Source: a virus. From it: DNA of 36,241 nucleotides. Position numbers and translations under genes: made by a program. Below the pieces are notes generated by a model, which worked only from the letters and a program-made list of their open reading frames with translations, did no database searches and had not been told where the DNA came from. The DNA is taken from positions 1-36,241 of the IMG/VR virus record IMGVR_UViG_3300031251_000066; one strand, given 5' to 3'. This document shows, piece by piece, positions 3,299-36,241 of the stretch. Positions within the stretch are counted from its first letter, which is position 1, and each line of letters begins with the position of its first letter.

Positions 3299-4282
3299 TT
3301 AGAAGATAAAATCATCTCCATCACCAAATGTTTGTATTTGCGTATTTTGAATAGCAGCTTCAGCTTTCTTATATTTATCAATAGCAGCTTGCAGGTTAGT
3401 TATACGATTACCCATAAGTTGATTTGTTATAATAAAGTAAGTAGATGGTGTCTCATGTCTCGTAGCTGTTAAAGCAGCTTCAGGATAATATCCAACACAA
3501 CTATAGGTTTGACCTAAATCAACTATATTATCTTCTTTACTAGTCAATAAACTAGCTACTGAAATAGCAGCTAATTCAATCGGCAACTCACCATCTTTGC
3601 CATTTAAGTGGATTATGATATCTACTATCTGTGGTGCTACTTTACTATTTTTATCATAATTTAACCATTTAAAGATATCTTGACTATCGAGTTCTTCATT
3701 GGTGCCAGAGGCTAACATAGCCAAAGATCGTAAGTCAATGTCAATGTTACGATCTACCTCCTGTCTATTTGTTTCATTATTATTTTCATAAAACAAACCA
3801 GCAATAGGTCTACCTAATTTTTTAGTAGATAGATTTTGTAATGTACCTATTGTATTATAAGCATTGGTAGTTTCTCGTGAGGAAGCTGTAGAAATTACAG
3901 ATAAAATTACTACAGGTTTTCCTCTATTAATTAACTCTTCCACAATCAATGGTCCCAGTACAGAACCTGAACCACCTGATAAACCAAAAATTACTATGTT
4001 AAAATCTGCAGGTGGATGTTTAAGAAATATAGAGTTAATGTGTGGTACTGCTACAGAGTGCGTAAAAGCTCTATCTTTCCCAGAGCCATCTACACCAGGT
4101 ATTAAAAATATATCACCTTTATTTGACTTTGGCTGAATATTACTTTTTGAAGTATCAATCAAAGAATAAACAGTGTCGGGAAAACCAGCTGAATCTGAAG
4201 GTATATCAACATTATTAATTGCATTTACCCCAAGTCCACCACAGCCATAAATTCTTAAGGTAGATTTTGATTTAGTATTCAT
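3299..4282 (-). CDS. phuZ: PhuZ-like tubulin/FtsZ GTPase
   Basis: A 327-residue member of the tubulin/FtsZ superfamily of the kind found in phiKZ-like jumbo phages, where the filaments centre the phage nucleus and carry capsids to it. Visible motifs are the T1 loop GCGGLGVN (residues 13-20), the T4 GTP-binding G-box GLSGGSGSVLG (100-110; FtsZ has GGGTGTG) and a T7-type catalytic loop NIDIDLRSL (179-187), comparable to NxDxxD in FtsZ. The C-terminus ends in an acidic tail (FGDGDDFIF), as expected for PhuZ, whose acidic tail is needed for polymerisation. Length is near that of known PhuZ proteins. It is read leftward, with a promoter-like element about 67 nt upstream of the start and a hairpin just behind the stop. 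Confidence 0.92.
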   Translation of the reverse strand: MNTKSKSTLRIYGCGGLGVNAINNVDIPSDSAGFPDTVYSLIDTSKSNIQPKSNKGDIFLIPGVDGSGKDRAFTHSVAVPHINSIFLKHPPADFNIVIFGLSGGSGSVLGPLIVEELINRGKPVVILSVISTASSRETTNAYNTIGTLQNLSTKKLGRPIAGLFYENNNETNRQEVDRNIDIDLRSLAMLASGTNEELDSQDIFKWLNYDKNSKVAPQIVDIIIHLNGKDGELPIELAAISVASLLTSKEDNIVDLGQTYSCVGYYPEAALTATRHETPSTYFIITNQLMGNRITNLQAAIDKYKKAEAAIQNTQIQTFGDGDDFIF

Positions 4283-4464: not shown

Positions 4465-5208
4465 ATGAATAATATAGAATACATTCTTTCTGTAATAAAA
4501 AGAAAGATACCTTTACCTATCTTAAATATGGCATTCTTACCAACAGATACATTTGGTAGATTAAGACCTAGTTTAAGTCATTGTATTCAAAATACTATTG
4601 TAAATAATTGGGTATTAGCTGATGCTAATATGGTAGCTGGTATTGAAACTATTATAGATATAACAAATTGTCAAATCACTACAGTAAACATGGGTATGAT
4701 TATTCATGTTGGATTAGGACCAACCGCTGGTAAAGTAATTACATCAGTGCTTAGTGTTGGCTATGGTTATAATGCATTAGCTGGTGGACAGCCAGGAATA
4801 GCTTCTGCTTTGACAGAACCTTTACAAACTTCAGATGCTAGAGTACAACTAGTTGGTACTAATATAGTTTATGTAGAAGGTTACACTGGTGTTACATTAA
4901 CTAATATGAGATGTGTATTAGAGAATGATGAAGAGTTTAATAATCTATCACCTAGAGCTATGCCATTTATATCTGAACTATGCACTTTAGCAGCTAAAGC
5001 TTATATTTATAATGAGTTATCTATTAAACTAGCTAATGCTGTAATAGTAAATGGTATAGATACGGGTAAATACGCTGAAATAGTAAATAGCTATTCAGAT
5101 GCAGATCAAATGTATACAGAACAGCGAGATACTAAATTAGCTAAAATAACATTACTATCAGACCCGGTTACTCGTAATAGAATTATAAGAATGACTTGTC
5201 CTTCATAA
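4465..5208 (+). CDS. Hypothetical, possible virion protein, 247 aa
   Basis: A 247-residue protein without a signature I can name. The middle (residues 55-160) is rich in Gly, Thr and Val with alternating hydrophobics, suggesting a beta-sandwich. The C-terminal third is more helical and charged (YSDADQMYTEQRDTKLAK). No signal peptide or membrane span. This composition resembles phage structural proteins, and in phiKZ I recall virion-type genes near the PhuZ gene, but both points are weak. The start follows AAGGAC about 9 nt upstream. The gene is divergent from PhuZ across a 182-nt gap, and its transcript ends at a 34-bp palindrome. Confidence 0.65.
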   Translation: MNNIEYILSVIKRKIPLPILNMAFLPTDTFGRLRPSLSHCIQNTIVNNWVLADANMVAGIETIIDITNCQITTVNMGMIIHVGLGPTAGKVITSVLSVGYGYNALAGGQPGIASALTEPLQTSDARVQLVGTNIVYVEGYTGVTLTNMRCVLENDEEFNNLSPRAMPFISELCTLAAKAYIYNELSIKLANAVIVNGIDTGKYAEIVNSYSDADQMYTEQRDTKLAKITLLSDPVTRNRIIRMTCPS

Positions 5209-5478
5209 AAAAATAAAAAAGAATAATAGCATATAGGTAGAGAGCATATGCTCTCTACCTATATAATTGTGCTTTTTACTTATACTAAAAGTATCCCAAT
5301 CTGCTGGTTTTTTAATAATAGGAATATTATTTTCATCTGCCCAATCCTTTCCTAATAAATCAGCACCTCTAGCCATACCACATATTACTTCTGTTATCTT
5401 AAAGTTAGATAGAGATATAGCCATATCAATATGCTGTCTTGTAGTACCAGCTCTAGAACCAGCAATTATAACTTTCAC
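5203..5478 (-). pseudogene. Truncated DUF2493/YspA-like (SLOG) protein remnant
   Basis: The reading frame opens at a GTG (5478, preceded by TAGGG) and encodes VKVIIAGSRAG, then VICGMARGADLLGKDWADENN and IPIIKKPADWDTF. This is the characteristic GSR...G.A.GAD.LG..WA....I....PADW pattern of DUF2493 (YspA-like, SLOG superfamily, nucleotide-binding Rossmann-like fold). Intact members continue with G..AG..RN..M and a C-terminal helix. Here the family sequence stops after PADWDTF and the frame runs into a palindromic terminator and then the end of the opposite gene. About two thirds of the domain remains, so I read it as a decayed gene. A longer start at 5526 lies inside another palindrome and would add a hydrophobic leader foreign to the family. 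Confidence 0.7.
5231..5264. terminator. 34-bp perfect palindrome, terminator
   Basis: Fully self-complementary, with arms of 17 bp (ATATAGGTAGAGAGCAT and its complement), 23 nt past the stop of the rightward gene at 4465-5208. It can form the same hairpin in both directions. The DUF2493 remnant reads into it from the other side. Confidence 0.75.
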
Positions 5479-5518
5479 AGCTAACCCTATTATGACAAAA
5501 AAATATAATAATAAAAAG

Positions 5519-5552
5519 ATATGCATTGTTAGATTAATCTAACAATGCATAT
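5519..5552. terminator. 34-bp perfect palindrome beside repeat array
   Basis: Self-complementary over 34 bp (left arm ATATGCATTGTTAGATT). It separates the DUF2493 remnant from the 37-bp repeat array. For a leftward transcript started at copy C of the promoter-like element (5948-5977) it would be the first strong hairpin, giving an RNA of about 400 nt. Confidence 0.6.
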
Positions 5553-5591
5553 TGAGGCTCAGGAGGAAGAGCGATTTTTATCTAATATTAA

Positions 5592-5886
5592 GATTCACTA
5601 GTTCTTATTGAAATTATTTCTCCTTTAGATTCACTTATTTATAATGAAAATTATTATCTGCATAGATTCACTAACAAAAAATGGGATTACTATTGCTATT
5701 TGATTCACTAATAAATTTTGGGTTTGATTTTATTTATTGGTTCACTGTTAGATTTTGGGATTACTAGTTTCTTCTGATTCACTAATGAATTATGGTATTA
5801 CTAGTTGTGTTTGATTCACTTCGTTATATTGGGTATAATTACTGACACTGATATTACCGATAATCTTGTTTAATCACTATATAATA
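5592..5886. repeat. Tandem array of degenerate 37-bp repeats
   Basis: Seven units begin with GATTCACT (one GGTTCACT) at 5592, 5628, 5665, 5702, 5739, 5776 and 5813, spaced 36, 37, 37, 37, 37 and 37 bp. A much weaker eighth unit keeps phase at 5850. Units share the opening GATTCACTAAT and a second block near TGGGATTACTA about 10 bp further on; the rest drifts. Because 37 is not a multiple of three and no start codon with a ribosome-binding site is present, this is not a coding repeat. It fills the 488-nt gene-free stretch between 5526 and 6015 together with a palindrome on the left and a promoter-like element on the right. Candidate roles are iteron-like protein binding, an origin or packaging site, or a structured RNA. 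Confidence 0.85.
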
Positions 5887-5924
5887 ATCACTATTAATAT
5901 ATTAATAATTTCTTATTTTATTTG

Positions 5925-5946
5925 CGATTAATCGTATGATATCATA
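5925..5946. promoter_or_regulatory. Two abutting short palindromes at predicted transcript start
   Basis: CGATTAATCG (5925-5934) directly abuts TATGATATCATA (5935-5946), both perfect palindromes. They lie immediately downstream of the TATATTAT core of promoter-like copy C, where a transcript into the repeat array would start. They could be operator half-sites, but AT-rich DNA gives short palindromes by chance. Confidence 0.3.
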
Positions 5947-5947
5947 T

Positions 5948-5977
5948 AAATAATATATACATTCAAATTTTTTGAAT
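5948..5977 (-). promoter_or_regulatory. Promoter-like element, copy C, facing repeat array
   Basis: Minus-strand copy of the six-member element with the perfect inverted repeat ATTCAAA-AAA-TTTGAAT in its 5' half and a TATATTAT core at 5950-5957. Unlike the other copies, no gene start lies 40-70 nt downstream. The only thing it points at is the 37-bp repeat array, then the palindrome at 5519-5552. Confidence 0.5.
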
Positions 5978-6014: not shown

Positions 6015-7229
6015 ATGACAGCTCAAAGTGGTATTAATAAGGTTTTTAATAAACATGTTACTCTAAAAATAGATCATGCTTTTGCTCTAAAAGTAGTCAC
6101 ACATGTACATAATTTTACTAGAAAGGATTCAGAGTTCATTGAATTCTTTGGAGGTAACTTAATTGGTGTAAATAAAATTACATGGTCAGCTATAGATTCT
6201 ACAGTATGGATAGAAGATATATTAGAAGTTAGTGATTATGATCTATTATGTTCAGAAATATGGGAGTTACCACATATTAATAAAAACTGGCAAATTGCGT
6301 GTAATCCTATTAATCTATCTTTTCTATGGTTATGTCATCAGGCTCTTGTATCTAATATACTTTCACAAAAAGATAAAGATGCTTTAGCTGCTGCATCATT
6401 AAATATGTTACAATATAGATTTATAACATCTATTCATTCACATAACTTTAGATTTCCAGCTAATATATCTATTGCTTTAGCTGTCTATGAAGGATTAGAT
6501 AATAAATCTCAGTTAAAGAAATATGGTAGTTGGCAAGGCTTAGTGGATGCTAGAACTGAAGATATATTAGGGCATGATAGTTTACATGCTTCTACTATAA
6601 GAACATTAGAGAGTGATAAAGATATCATTAATATGGTAAATGATATATGGAATAGATTAAAGTCTATCTTTAAAATATTAACAGCTGATTTTCATAGAAT
6701 TAAAGATACTAACGCTAGAATTTCATCTACTACTAAATACACTACTGTAGATGGTGAAATGATTCTAAAAGACTCTATTAATAAGTATGCACATATTAAA
6801 TCTTTAATGCATGATATTATTCCAGATAGGAATAGTTTTATAAGAGAAGACTTATTAAATATAATCACACTAACAGTAACTACTGTTTATCCTGAATATC
6901 TAAAAACTACATTAACCTATATATCTGAAAATTATAATGCTAAACATAAATACGTATTCTTTCCAGGATTAATCGATGATATATTAATGTATGCTTTTGA
7001 TATTATTAGACATGAAAAAATAGAACTAGATAATTTACCAGCTATAGCTATTAAAATGCGTGGTATGTTTAGATCTAGTAGGGTAACTGATCCTTTATAT
7101 ATTAGTATTAAACACAGACTAAATATAATTATAGAGGATGCTAATCCTAAAATTAATGAGGCTAATAACAGTAGCACTAAGATAGCAGTAAATCTATATA
7201 TAATATTAAGAGCATTATTAAAGACATAA
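6015..7229 (+). CDS. Hypothetical phage protein, 404 aa
   Basis: A 404-residue protein I cannot assign. The N-terminal third contains FGGNLIGVNKITWSAIDSTVWIEDIL, a segment whose style (KITW...D...W..D.L) I associate with conserved jumbo-phage proteins. The rest is predicted mostly helical, with many Ile, Asn, Leu and Lys residues. There is no signal peptide or membrane span and no recognisable catalytic motif. The start has AGGAA 8 nt upstream. It heads a rightward group of three genes (6015-8144) that ends at the palindrome at 8317-8354, and is followed after 12 nt by a small membrane protein gene. Confidence 0.7.
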   Translation: MTAQSGINKVFNKHVTLKIDHAFALKVVTHVHNFTRKDSEFIEFFGGNLIGVNKITWSAIDSTVWIEDILEVSDYDLLCSEIWELPHINKNWQIACNPINLSFLWLCHQALVSNILSQKDKDALAAASLNMLQYRFITSIHSHNFRFPANISIALAVYEGLDNKSQLKKYGSWQGLVDARTEDILGHDSLHASTIRTLESDKDIINMVNDIWNRLKSIFKILTADFHRIKDTNARISSTTKYTTVDGEMILKDSINKYAHIKSLMHDIIPDRNSFIREDLLNIITLTVTTVYPEYLKTTLTYISENYNAKHKYVFFPGLIDDILMYAFDIIRHEKIELDNLPAIAIKMRGMFRSSRVTDPLYISIKHRLNIIIEDANPKINEANNSSTKIAVNLYIILRALLKT

Positions 7230-8316: not shown

Positions 8317-8354
8317 AGACTATATAGATGCACATATGTGCATCTATATAGTCT
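8317..8354. terminator. 38-bp perfect palindrome, bidirectional terminator
   Basis: Fully self-complementary 38 bp (left arm AGACTATATAGATGCACAT). It lies between the convergent glycosyltransferase (ends 8144) and terminase (ends 8377) genes, so it can end both transcripts. The 170 nt before it hold no credible gene. Confidence 0.8.
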
Positions 8355-19243: not shown

Positions 19244-19281
19244 ATAGACTACTATACCACATATGTGGTATAGTAGTCTAT
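19244..19281. terminator. 38-bp perfect palindrome, bidirectional terminator
   Basis: Self-complementary 38 bp (left arm ATAGACTACTATACCACAT) between the rightward tube gene (ends 19222) and the leftward gene ending at 19286. It serves both convergent units. Confidence 0.8.
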
Positions 19282-20033: not shown

Positions 20034-20065
20034 ATAGTAGGGGTGGATTAATCCACCCCTACTAT
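20034..20065. terminator. 32-bp perfect palindrome, terminator
   Basis: Self-complementary 32 bp (left arm ATAGTAGGGGTGGATT), starting 17 nt past the stop of the 129-residue gene at 20083-20472. It is the most G+C-rich stem among the window's palindromes and ends the leftward unit that starts at promoter-like copy E. Confidence 0.8.
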
Positions 20066-23665: not shown

Positions 23666-23703
23666 ATAGTAGACTAGTGTGCTGCAGCACACTAGTCTAC
23701 TAT
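23666..23703. terminator. 38-bp perfect palindrome, terminator
   Basis: Self-complementary 38 bp (left arm ATAGTAGACTAGTGTGCTG). It overlaps the TAG stop of the 144-residue gene at 23700, so the hairpin forms right at the end of the coding sequence. Confidence 0.8.
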
Positions 23704-24940: not shown

Positions 24941-24976
24941 AGAGTATATAGATAGGATATCCTATCTATATACTCT
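24941..24976. terminator. 36-bp perfect palindrome, terminator
   Basis: Self-complementary 36 bp (left arm AGAGTATATAGATAGGAT), starting 5 nt past the stop of the 248-residue gene and 58 nt before the protease start. It separates two leftward units on the same strand. Confidence 0.75.
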
Positions 24977-25817: not shown

Positions 25818-25857
25818 ATAATAGAGATAATGAGAATATTCTCATTATCTCTATTAT
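25818..25857. terminator. 40-bp perfect palindrome, terminator
   Basis: The longest self-complementary stretch in the window (left arm ATAATAGAGATAATGAGAAT), 3 nt past the stop of the 90-residue membrane protein gene. It ends the leftward unit 28515-25860. Confidence 0.8.
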
Positions 25858-33356: not shown

Positions 33357-33360
33357 AGAT

Positions 33361-33534
33361 TTATTCCTTTTCTAATAACCCTCTAGTCATTGAGTATAGT
33401 ACTAACGCTGCAATGTGATTATTACAACCATATTTTAAAACACCACCTATATCAGTATAGGCGCCTTTTGAATTTATATAATCTTTCGCTTCTTGAACAG
33501 CTTCTTCAGAAGTTACTATATTAAATGATACTTT
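33361..33534 (-). CDS. RNA polymerase beta'-like subunit, exon 2
   Basis: No start codon. The 57 codons plus stop read KVSFNIVTSEEAVQEAKDYI at the beginning and MTRGLLEKE at the end. Joined to exon 1 they give DNDGD-KVSFNIVTSEEAVQEAK, which aligns without a gap to [24 protein letters not shown] of bacterial beta'. Reading upstream beyond 33534 in this frame stays open only for a dozen codons that do not fit the family, then hits a stop, as expected for intron sequence. The beta' chain ends 57 residues past the catalytic motif, so the rest of beta' must be a separate gene, as in phiKZ-like phages. The cysteine peptidase-like gene follows after 4 nt. Confidence 0.85.
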   Translation of the reverse strand, partial: KVSFNIVTSEEAVQEAKDYINSKGAYTDIGGVLKYGCNNHIAALVLYSMTRGLLEKE

Positions 33535-33909
33535 CGATAGGTGTTCAACAGTAGTCGTTAATTACTGCCAGCGGCATTACCCGCATCTCTATATCTCTAT
33601 AGATGTCCAGATCATGTCTTTATCCATTAATATAACTCTATTATATCAATTAGGATACTTCCCATTTCTTCCCACTTGGGTTCTACTCGGTGGATAGCCG
33701 ATGATCGTTGAACTTTACCCATGTCAGATAATTATCTGATTTAGAGCCTTAGCTGCATAGTTGTCTCTATTCAATATTTTTCAAACCATCATATCTAATA
33801 ACTTTACTCTTTCGAGGATATTGTGGTATATTGACCTAACAAGGGTTTCTAGCAATTAAAGAAGAATCTACTTAGATATTACTATCTAGTAGGACTATTG
33901 TTATACCTA

Positions 33910-35310
33910 TTATTTATATTTGAAATGCCAATCAGATTGAATCATGATTCCATGTAAACATCTTTTAATTGCTTTTCTATTAACTTTAGTTAATTTCTCA
34001 GCAATTCTAATTGAATCACATTCATATTCATTTCCATTTTTATTAATAGCCAAAATGCACTTTGGTCTATTAATAGCCTCACTAAAATTAGTGCTCCATT
34101 TTTTATTTGTTTTATATCTGTACGCATATCCATTTGTTACAAATGTCTCACCATTAAATATGGTATGTTTTATTGTGTTTAGTTTTACATCAAGATACTT
34201 ACTAGCTTCAAACATACTGTTAAAGTTATATATCTTATTAGTAGATATCTCATATGCCTGTATAGGTTTCTTTGATACTTCATACGCTGGAATATCTTCA
34301 TATGTTAATTTTAAATTATTCCTACGGGCATATGAATCTAATATACTTCTTTTTTTAACAATTGTGTTTTTAAATCCAAAATGTTTAGCTACCTCAGGCA
34401 TACCATTAAAATATAATGAATTATTATCTTTATCTGTTACTGTAATTTTTAATCTAACATTTCGTTGAAGTCCAGTGTGTTTTGCATCAGGCCATAAAGT
34501 ATCATCATCTAATAGTTTAATTTGATACTTTGCATTTATAAGTCTATAAGTATTTAATCTAATAAAATCTTTATATGATTTATTAGATACTTTCATAAAC
34601 TCACATGCTTCTCTTAAACTACAAAATGTAGTAACTTCATTTGTTTCTACATTACGTATTTTACATGGGGTATTATCACTACGTAGCCCATTATCATAAG
34701 CATGATCCATATTTCCTTTATGATCAGTCCACTCTAAGTTACTACAGTGTGGGTTATGCTTATTACTATCTTTATGATTCACTAGGTAGTATTTTAAATG
34801 ATCTGGATTTTTTACCCACGCTAAGGCCACTAATCTGTGTAATAATAAATTTTTATATATACCTTTATCAGCTGCATATAACTTAATAGTAATATATCTA
34901 TTTGTTTCTTTGATGGATGGTACTAATACATTACATTCAGTATCAAAAACTTCACCACTTTGTGAAATAGCATAACGGGTATACTCCGGAATAATTCTAA
35001 AACCAGGTTTATACTCAAGCGGTCTACCATAAAACAACATGGTTTTATTTACTGAGTTAGAATAAATCCATTTATAAATATCTACAAAATAAATATTAAA
35101 CAAATCTTTTGCTTTAAGATCTACTTCAAAATGAGTAATTAATCTTAACCATTCTATTGTTACTGTTCTTTCTCTACCATACATTTCTAACGAAATGGCT
35201 GGTTCATTATTTAAAGATGTCAGCGTGCACGCTGACCCATCTTTCCTACGTACTTCTCCATTAATTGACATTTCATATAAATTGTTAGTCTTTGGTACTA
35301 TTTTAAACAT
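33910..35310 (-). CDS. Intron-encoded HNH homing endonuclease
   Basis: A 466-residue protein. An HNH domain spans about residues 155-210: LLLHRLVALAW (His158), NHKDSNKHNP (His179, Asp181, Asn186), NLEW (191-194) and NMDHAYDNG, the layout of HNH_3/I-HmuI-type enzymes. Before it, FRIIPEYTRYAISQSGEVFD (104-123) is NUMOD4-like. After it, CSLREACEFMKVSN, and PIQAYEISTNKIYNFNSMFE with EASKYLDVK (about 350-380), are NUMOD1-like DNA-binding helices, which are repeated. It would cut intronless copies of the beta' gene at the catalytic-motif codons so that repair copies the intron across. The start has AGGAA 7 nt upstream, partly buried in a hairpin. The ORF is intact. Confidence 0.92.
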   Translation of the reverse strand: MFKIVPKTNNLYEMSINGEVRRKDGSACTLTSLNNEPAISLEMYGRERTVTIEWLRLITHFEVDLKAKDLFNIYFVDIYKWIYSNSVNKTMLFYGRPLEYKPGFRIIPEYTRYAISQSGEVFDTECNVLVPSIKETNRYITIKLYAADKGIYKNLLLHRLVALAWVKNPDHLKYYLVNHKDSNKHNPHCSNLEWTDHKGNMDHAYDNGLRSDNTPCKIRNVETNEVTTFCSLREACEFMKVSNKSYKDFIRLNTYRLINAKYQIKLLDDDTLWPDAKHTGLQRNVRLKITVTDKDNNSLYFNGMPEVAKHFGFKNTIVKKRSILDSYARRNNLKLTYEDIPAYEVSKKPIQAYEISTNKIYNFNSMFEASKYLDVKLNTIKHTIFNGETFVTNGYAYRYKTNKKWSTNFSEAINRPKCILAINKNGNEYECDSIRIAEKLTKVNRKAIKRCLHGIMIQSDWHFKYK

Positions 35311-35319
35311 TGTATTATT

Positions 35320-35346
35320 CCTGTTATATTAGTTACATATAACAGG
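35320..35346 (-). promoter_or_regulatory. Hairpin masking endonuclease ribosome-binding site
   Basis: Arms CCTGTTATA / TATAACAGG with a 9-nt loop lie within the intron's 5' end. The AGG of the AGGAA ribosome-binding site for the HNH gene forms the last base pairs of the right arm. In the unspliced RNA this would limit endonuclease translation. T4 td is known to hide the I-TevI ribosome-binding site in a similar way, relieved by a late transcript starting inside the intron. The hairpin may also be intron P2. Confidence 0.65.
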
Positions 35347-35396
35347 CAATACAGATAAAATAATACATAAATACTGTAAGAATAACATATGTGTTT

Positions 35397-36241
35397 ATCT
35401 CCATCGTTATCAGCTCCCAAGCCATTATAGTGACTTGTATGCACTTGGAGTGATTCAAAAAATGGCTCACCAGTAATAGGCATATTAATAGCTTTATTTT
35501 CATTTTCTACTGGTTTCCACATTGAGTCTAATCTTTGTAAAGACTGAGATCTAGTTGTAGTTTTTAATACTATAAATGAAGGGTAAATACTACCCATAGT
35601 AAGAATTGGGTATCTGGTTACATAAGCTGCTACTTTCTTACTAGTTAAGTATGTAGATATGTAAAACATTTCAGTCCATGTAATTGGATGCACATTACTT
35701 CTACTTTTATCTCTAGGTAATTCATCTATATCATAAAAGACTTTAAAGTAATGATCATCTCTATATATTAGTGCAGCATACTCACCATCTATTAGAATTG
35801 GTTTATGTCTAGCATCTAATTTCTCATAACCATTTATTAAGTCTTCAATACCACTATCAGTACCCCATTTTTCTTTAATAAAACTAGATGGTGAGATTGT
35901 TTTTGCTTTTAGAGTTTTCTTATCTATCACTACAATATCATTGGGTAGGTTTTCTATAATGTTCATCATAGGTCCAGTTTTAACATTGTAAATAGATAAT
36001 GCACCTGTACCTTTTAAATATTGATGTAAACCACATGCAGAATCATTTATAGTAATGGCTTCTTCTGAACCTAATACTTTAGGTGCTGGGTCCATAGCAG
36101 TAATTACATTCCTAGTTCCACCATGTATATTTCTAGCTCCCCACTTAGATAATAAAAATCCTTTTTTACCAGTTAAGATAGATTCTATGTGTGTGTATAT
36201 CTCATTAAAGGCATTTTGTAGAGTCCATCGACTAGTGTCAT
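35397..36241 (-). CDS. RNA polymerase beta'-like subunit, exon 1 (partial at window edge)
   Basis: The frame is open from the right edge of the window to the intron, so the N-terminus lies beyond 36241. GKKGFLLSKWGARNIHGGTR and NVITAMDPAPKVLGSEEAIT match the GKRVDYSGRSVITVGP.L.L.QCGLP block of bacterial beta', and ITINDSACGLHQYLKG continues it. NGLGADNDGD matches the absolutely conserved NADFDGD, whose three Asp residues hold the catalytic Mg ions. Without splicing, translation would continue KHICYSYSIYVLF for about 32 hydrophobic residues and stop at 35298, an inactive product. With the beta-like gene and the peptidase-like gene it forms one leftward unit, corresponding to phiKZ gp180-gp178 by remembered gene order, hence probably the virion RNA polymerase. 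Confidence 0.88.

Follow-up and report, generated by a model that had tools for sequence, protein, structure and literature searches.

Positions 5591-5858 of a 36,241-base virus record from IMG/VR (30% G+C; analysed over its whole length and called the window below) hold a noncoding array of seven repeat units with a period of 36-37 bp, and the question that we consider here is what such an array is for. The window carries genes for PhuZ tubulin (3299-4282, minus strand), the terminase large subunit, a tail sheath, a phiKZ gp28-like protein, a head protease and a multi-subunit RNA polymerase, and comes from a divergent phiKZ-like jumbo phage, of whose genome it is a fragment. No relative turned up in DNA searches, and its proteins are ~30% identical to those of named phages. 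The array is flanked by a YspA/SLOG gene (5203-5481, minus) and a phrog_2921 core gene (6015-7229, plus). The initial annotation offered two readings of the repeats, namely a noncoding transcript of ~400 nt, or an iteron array acting as an origin, a packaging site or a TubZ-type centromere.

The seven degenerate units described there are borne out by the positions of the repeated words, by TRF and by self-matching against shuffled sequences. Copies of the word GATTCACT begin at 5592, 5628, 5665, 5702, 5776 and 5813, and a variant start word, GGTTCACT, lies at 5739, giving start-to-start spacings of 36, 37, 37, 37, 37 and 37; a degenerate eighth start, TGATATTACC, keeps the register at 5850. 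TRF gives a period of 37 bp (also 74 bp), and the self-match at a lag of 37 is 0.576, compared with a maximum of 0.489 across all lags in 5000 Markov shuffles. The 36-37-bp period is far beyond chance, and the second conserved block, TGGGATTACTA, is real as well. No ORF of at least 60 aa runs across the array, in agreement with the claim that it holds no gene; since 37 is not a multiple of 3 and there is no such ORF, the array is not coding, and a protein-coding repeat was rejected.

On the minus strand, each unit follows the formula edge WAGTGAATCW, 8 variable nucleotides, loop TAGTAATCCCA, 8 variable nucleotides; in all seven units the edge is 10 nt, the loop 11 nt (10 nt in one unit) and each spacer 8 nt. 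Two conserved words that alternate with two variable stretches fit the description of a TIGR (tandem interspaced guide RNA) array. TIGR arrays are the guide-RNA part of the TIGR-Tas systems, which perform RNA-guided DNA binding, and are defined by two distinct repeats of 8-12 nt alternating with spacers of ~8-9 nt in a unit of ~36 nt, usually with 5-15 units (Faure et al. 2025, PMC12045711). In the published arrays, the edge and loop repeats have box C/box D ends in common, and the last edge is truncated on its 3' side and precedes a terminator (PMC12045711). The features of the window locus, in the order of the proposed transcription, are as follows.

5947-5966, minus strand: promoter-like element GAATGTATATATTATTTA facing the array, an exact match to a shared AT-rich element; putative promoter
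5822-5858, minus strand: tigRNA unit 1, with truncated or degenerate edge GGTAATATCA, spacer A GTGTCAGT, loop AATTATACCCA and spacer B ATATAACG; in register, 37 nt before unit 2
5785-5821, minus strand: tigRNA unit 2, AAGTGAATCA - AACACAAC - TAGTAATACCA - TAATTCAT; the best six-unit chain of the external TIGR profile begins here (5821, minus)
5748-5784, minus strand: tigRNA unit 3, TAGTGAATCA - GAAGAAAC - TAGTAATCCCA - AAATCTAA; from the parse and the external profile chain
5711-5747, minus strand: tigRNA unit 4, CAGTGAACCA - ATAAATAA - AATCAAACCCA - AAATTTAT; from the parse and the external profile chain
5674-5710, minus strand: tigRNA unit 5, TAGTGAATCA - AATAGCAA - TAGTAATCCCA - TTTTTTGT; from the parse and the external profile chain
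5637-5673, minus strand: tigRNA unit 6, with a diverged loop, TAGTGAATCT - ATGCAGAT - AATAATTTTCA - TTATAAAT; from the parse and the external profile chain
5601-5636, minus strand: tigRNA unit 7, 36 nt with a 10-nt loop, AAGTGAATCT - AAAGGAGA - AATAATTTCA - ATAAGAAC; from the parse and the external profile chain
5591-5600, minus strand: terminal edge repeat TAGTGAATCT, closing the array; from the parse, a 3'-truncated array end being known from the published systems
5519-5552, minus strand: perfect 34-bp palindrome (arms 17 bp, loop 0) followed by a T-rich stretch; putative array terminator

The array thus parsed has the dual-repeat layout of TIGR arrays, with conserved repeats and variable spacers. 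Pairwise identity between units is 0.85 for edges and 0.66 for loops, and 0.33 and 0.44 for spacers A and B, for which base composition predicts 0.36 and 0.39; the spacer columns therefore vary as composition predicts, and about 16 of the 37 unit positions vary freely. Most edges and loops start with (W)AGT and end with (C/T)CA, the exceptions being three edges that end in TCT, not TCA, and the loops of units 1, 4, 6 and 7, which start with AAT. Good repeats are kept in five of the seven units, and units 1, 6 and 7 are diverged. When the spacers were compared with the window itself, the best targets had 14 of 16 matches, the same as for shuffled spacers, and none was above chance.

This pattern of variation bears on whether the locus encodes another kind of repeat-based noncoding RNA, such as the RNA of a type III toxin-antitoxin system (ToxI, with 36-nt tandem repeats) or a CRISPR-like array. 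The period is similar, and the locus appears to have a promoter and a terminator of its own, as such an RNA would. However, most of the unit in ToxI and in CRISPR-like arrays is taken up by a long conserved repeat: in ToxI, which has a ToxN gene downstream, this is the whole unit of ~36 nt, against 16 freely varying columns of 37 here, and in CRISPR arrays repeats of 25-36 nt are separated by unique spacers of similar length, whereas the window repeats are 10-11 nt long and alternate. In addition, an Rfam scan of the array gave nothing meaningful at either the gathering threshold or a permissive E-value, and no Cas-like protein was present among the window proteins scanned. We consider either identity extremely unlikely.

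The assignment to TIGR can be examined from outside the window. IMG/VR was scanned for three GATTCACT words 35-39 bp apart. Many of the matches lie in open frames, as protein repeats, and were not considered further; the scan also gave noncoding arrays with the two-block layout of the window, TGATTCACTT-N-TTGGGTAACTT-N with a period of 36. A narrow pattern, AGTAATCCCA-N-AGTGAATC, matched two contigs, neither with an array. Three distinct systems among the arrays (L022/L030, L006/L017 and L031) lie directly downstream of a gene of 313-321 aa on the same strand. The L022 product is 52.5% identical to a protein of Salicola phage CGphi29 and matches the solved TasH structure (21kl) at E 7e-104, and the L031 gene matches a Tas profile at 7.7e-132. 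CGphi29 is the source of the characterised TasH, SpTasH (PMC12045711), and its array behind tasH reads AAGCGAGCCA-N8-AAGACAACCA-N8. A scan for Tas relatives gave 57 loci, nearly all with such an array. Among cluster A mycobacteriophages, annotated transposase/HTH proteins (for example, MH479919 gene 72, H128) match the Nop-like part of TasH at ~27% identity and may be TasA proteins.

In the Tas-linked loci, pairs of the edge word AGYGARYCA 36 bp apart occur 192 times on the Tas strand (27 loci) and never on the other. In the window, the edge word is on the minus strand, and the array is parsed on that strand. The repeat words are homologous to those of the Tas-linked arrays on the same strand and in the same register. 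For a quantitative comparison, a unit model and position frequencies were built from 51 units, all from Tas-linked arrays and none from the window. The four best matches of the blind unit model in the window all fall inside the array, on the minus strand and in register; each is weak (best E 0.055), since the loop of the window array is longer by one base and its units are rich in A and T. With the same frequencies, a six-unit chain scores +44.8 bits at 5821 on the minus strand, compared with a mean of -65.6 and a maximum of -31.4 in 200 shuffled windows, -67 for the window without the array, -58 to -77 for relatives without arrays and +64 to +157 for known TIGR arrays. When the order of the array columns was shuffled, the observed score was reached in 1 of 5000 trials.

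Compared with the SpTIGR-TasH system of CGphi29 (PMC12045711; TasH structures 21kl and 9w04), the window array has the same 10-nt edge (AAGCGAGCCA there, WAGTGAATCW here), 8-nt spacers, a loop ending in CCA, the same polarity on the transcribed strand and a 3' truncated edge followed by a terminator. It differs in its loop of 11 nt and period of 37 (36 in CGphi29), in reading TAGTGAATC/TAGTAATCCCA where CGphi29 reads AAGCGAGCC/AAGACAACC, and in having no adjoining tasH. Of the three IMG/VR systems, L022 and L006 have an edge word identical to that of the window, AGTGAATCA, and the loops resemble its own (AGTTACCCA / AGAAACCCA); unlike the window, the three systems have the array directly behind tasH, and their contigs, judged on the sequence available, are not from jumbo phages. 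By descent and layout, then, the feature is almost certainly a dual-repeat TIGR array. The statement in the initial annotation that no description of the array was known holds for this copy and fails for the kind: the array, whose loop is slightly longer and which stands apart from any tas gene, belongs to a kind that is already published (PMC12045711).

The same comparison bears on the case for an iteron-type DNA element, in which the repeats would be bound by a protein that initiates replication, by one that packages the DNA or, in a centromere, by a TubR-like adaptor of the tubulin encoded nearby. In TubZRC centromeres, TubR binds iterons that lie beside tubZ and tubR. As in these and other iteron centromeres, tandem repeats stand near a tubulin-like gene; they are direct repeats ~3.5 helical turns apart beside the PhuZ gene, and neither strand folds into an RNA more stable than its shuffles (z -0.76 and +1.10). 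Unlike such elements, the array consists of two alternating words with unconstrained 8-nt spacers between them, exactly as in TIGR guide arrays, which leaves the iteron and centromere readings unsupported; moreover, its words and register match those of Tas-linked RNA arrays, and like arrays stand beside tas genes. PHROG and Pfam scans of nearly all other window genes gave no TubR-like match. A scan for the phrog_2921 neighbour gave 62 jumbo-phage loci, and the two nearest relatives (L131 and L118; 46% and 42% identity) have no array at the syntenic PhuZ locus and no unit-model matches elsewhere on their contigs; the syntenic locus of L004 has no array either. The search at the same place in related jumbo phages that the initial annotation proposed was negative in all three. 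An iteron element is, in our judgement, very improbable.

The flanks of the TIGR array suggest how it would be expressed. The promoter-like element that the initial annotation saw facing the array is present, with its core TATATATTATTTA at 5947-5959 on the minus strand. If one mismatch is allowed, it occurs at six sites, all on the minus strand and five of them intergenic, though only 11% of the window is intergenic; in an AT-rich sequence such as this window, the short word itself is no more frequent than expected. At the other end, the palindrome at 5519-5552, also noted earlier, is perfect, and the 14 nt past it contain 10 T residues on the minus exit and 2 on the plus exit. The window has 8 loop-free palindromes with arms of at least 12 bp, compared with 0 in 10 shuffles. 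The seven others are likewise perfect, with arms of 16-20 bp (5231-5264, 8317-8354, 19244-19281, 20034-20065, 23666-23703, 24941-24976 and 25818-25857); they sit at or beside the 3' ends of genes and look like the standard terminators of this phage. For this reason, the palindrome at 5519-5552 is taken as the putative terminator of the array transcript, so that the terminal edge (5591-5600) is followed by a palindrome with a T-rich tail on the minus strand, as at the 3' end of TIGR arrays. Array strand, promoter and terminator all agree, and a leftward transcript of ~400 nt is very probable from these sequence features. The transcript alternative of the initial annotation therefore gains support from strand, terminator and homology. 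Directly behind the palindrome and on the same strand is the small YspA/SLOG-family protein gene (5203-5481), which has no promoter-like element of its own and could be expressed by read-through from the array promoter.

In published systems, a tas gene lies beside the array (PMC12045711). The window, in contrast, has no Nop-domain Tas gene next to its array, and four profile and sequence searches detected none in the 36,241-bp fragment. Two proteins were rejected as candidates: the phrog_2921 neighbour is unrelated to Tas by profile comparison, and the HNH protein at 33910-35310, considered as a TasH, is a NUMOD homing endonuclease. The latter, together with a 553-bp noncoding stretch, adjoins an RNA polymerase beta fragment, and the region 33357-36095 is probably an intron or another homing element; no Rfam intron matched it at the gathering threshold. 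Given that no Tas gene adjoins it, only the array can be assigned, and we call the feature a TIGR array whose effector is unlinked or not yet sampled, not a complete TIGR-Tas system. Since the fragment covers little of a jumbo genome, the missing gene is uninformative about the whole phage; related jumbo contigs are mostly far longer, up to 323 kb.

Complete systems are present in other jumbo contigs. A Tas-like protein of 421 aa is encoded on four of 36 IMG/VR contigs searched (G016, G024, G034 and G038; phiKZ-like, 224-315 kb). Immediately upstream of its gene, and on the strand of that gene, each has a TIGR array of ~20-50 units; PhuZ is present in both of the two that were tested. The loci are G016:C1:153000-159500 (L190), G024:C1:129000-137000 (L191), G034 (L196) and G038 (L195). 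By sequence, the G024 protein matches TasR (9mty) and TasH, and no nuclease domain was detected in it; the top 11 matches of its predicted fold (mean pLDDT 71.7, from an alignment with two named-phage rows left out) are structures of TasH and TasR. From its sequence and modelled fold we call this protein TasA-like. The Tas genes of G024, G034 and G038 are 90-92% identical in DNA, and their aligned arrays are 77-79% identical, with indels of up to about two units. The repeats in these contigs, edge AGTGNATCA and loop AGTCACCCA, are close to those of the window, and their spacers are ~8-9 nt. The differences are that their arrays have 20-50 units and the 421-aa Tas directly downstream, whereas the window has seven units between the YspA/SLOG gene and the phrog_2921 core gene. 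In 14 named phiKZ-like genomes, no Tas was found, and the unit model gave no matches except one in phage Goslar (204020), which does not belong to a periodic array and is attributed to chance. A tblastn search with the jumbo TasA-like protein against 50,697 phage records gave nothing.

A Tas protein is rather likely to be encoded elsewhere in this phage. Two other readings were considered. In one, the array is standalone or decaying: the phage has no Tas, and the RNA is either useless or served by the Tas of the host or of a co-infecting phage. This would suit the absence of Tas from the fragment, and the divergence of units 1, 6 and 7 makes partial decay of the array possible. There are also other array contigs on which no Tas was detected by TasH and TasA profiles, in particular G003 (L014; 165 kb, >40 edges), G002 (L012; 75 kb) and G004 (L027; 44 kb), whose TIGR arrays possibly represent a further effector class or trans-acting arrays. 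However, the fragment is small beside the genomes of its relatives (200-320 kb), five of the seven units have good repeats, the putative promoter and terminator are intact, and four other phiKZ-like jumbo contigs do encode Tas; an orphan array is thus unlikely here. The other reading, which we regard as quite improbable, is a free-standing array whose guides load a distant or a competitor's Tas. The RNA would work in trans; if another jumbo phage co-infected the cell, for instance, it could serve as a decoy, occupying that phage's Tas or redirecting it. Solitary CRISPR repeats that act as RNA anti-CRISPRs provide a model for such a decoy, and the Tas-less arrays of G003, G002 and G004 would then belong to the same class.

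Our overall reading is that of a TIGR array of a tubulin-encoding phiKZ-like jumbo phage, with a leftward transcript of ~400 nt and seven guides, to which we assign a probability of about 0.9. The mechanism that we propose follows the published systems, in which one tigRNA is bound per Tas dimer and its two spacers pair with opposite DNA strands (PMC12045711). A phage promoter near 5950 would drive a leftward transcript of ~400 nt that ends at the palindrome at 5519-5552 and carries the seven units, in each of which the edge repeat and the loop repeat (11 nt) are followed by spacers A and B, respectively (8 nt each). By analogy, a Nop-domain Tas protein would bind the array repeats, cutting within the edges would release tigRNAs of ~36-37 nt, and each of these would recognise a single 16-bp DNA target, A plus the reverse complement of B, with its two spacers paired to opposite strands. 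The array may serve in regulation, or in competition against other phages or plasmids.

The description of TIGR-Tas systems dates from 2025 and rests mostly on metagenomic fragments (PMC12045711). Among the papers that our literature search listed, none reported them in jumbo phages, the group to which the window belongs. TIGR guide arrays are now placed inside phiKZ-like jumbo phages, and in four other contigs the array is accompanied by a TasA-like protein. A search that starts from the protein misses arrays of this kind, which can lie at a distance from tas genes. The phiKZ-like phages have cultivable relatives. Their replication takes place inside a protein nucleus, which protects the phage DNA against DNA-targeting defences; for an RNA-guided DNA binder in such a phage, the possible sites of action would be that nucleus, the host chromosome or competing phages.
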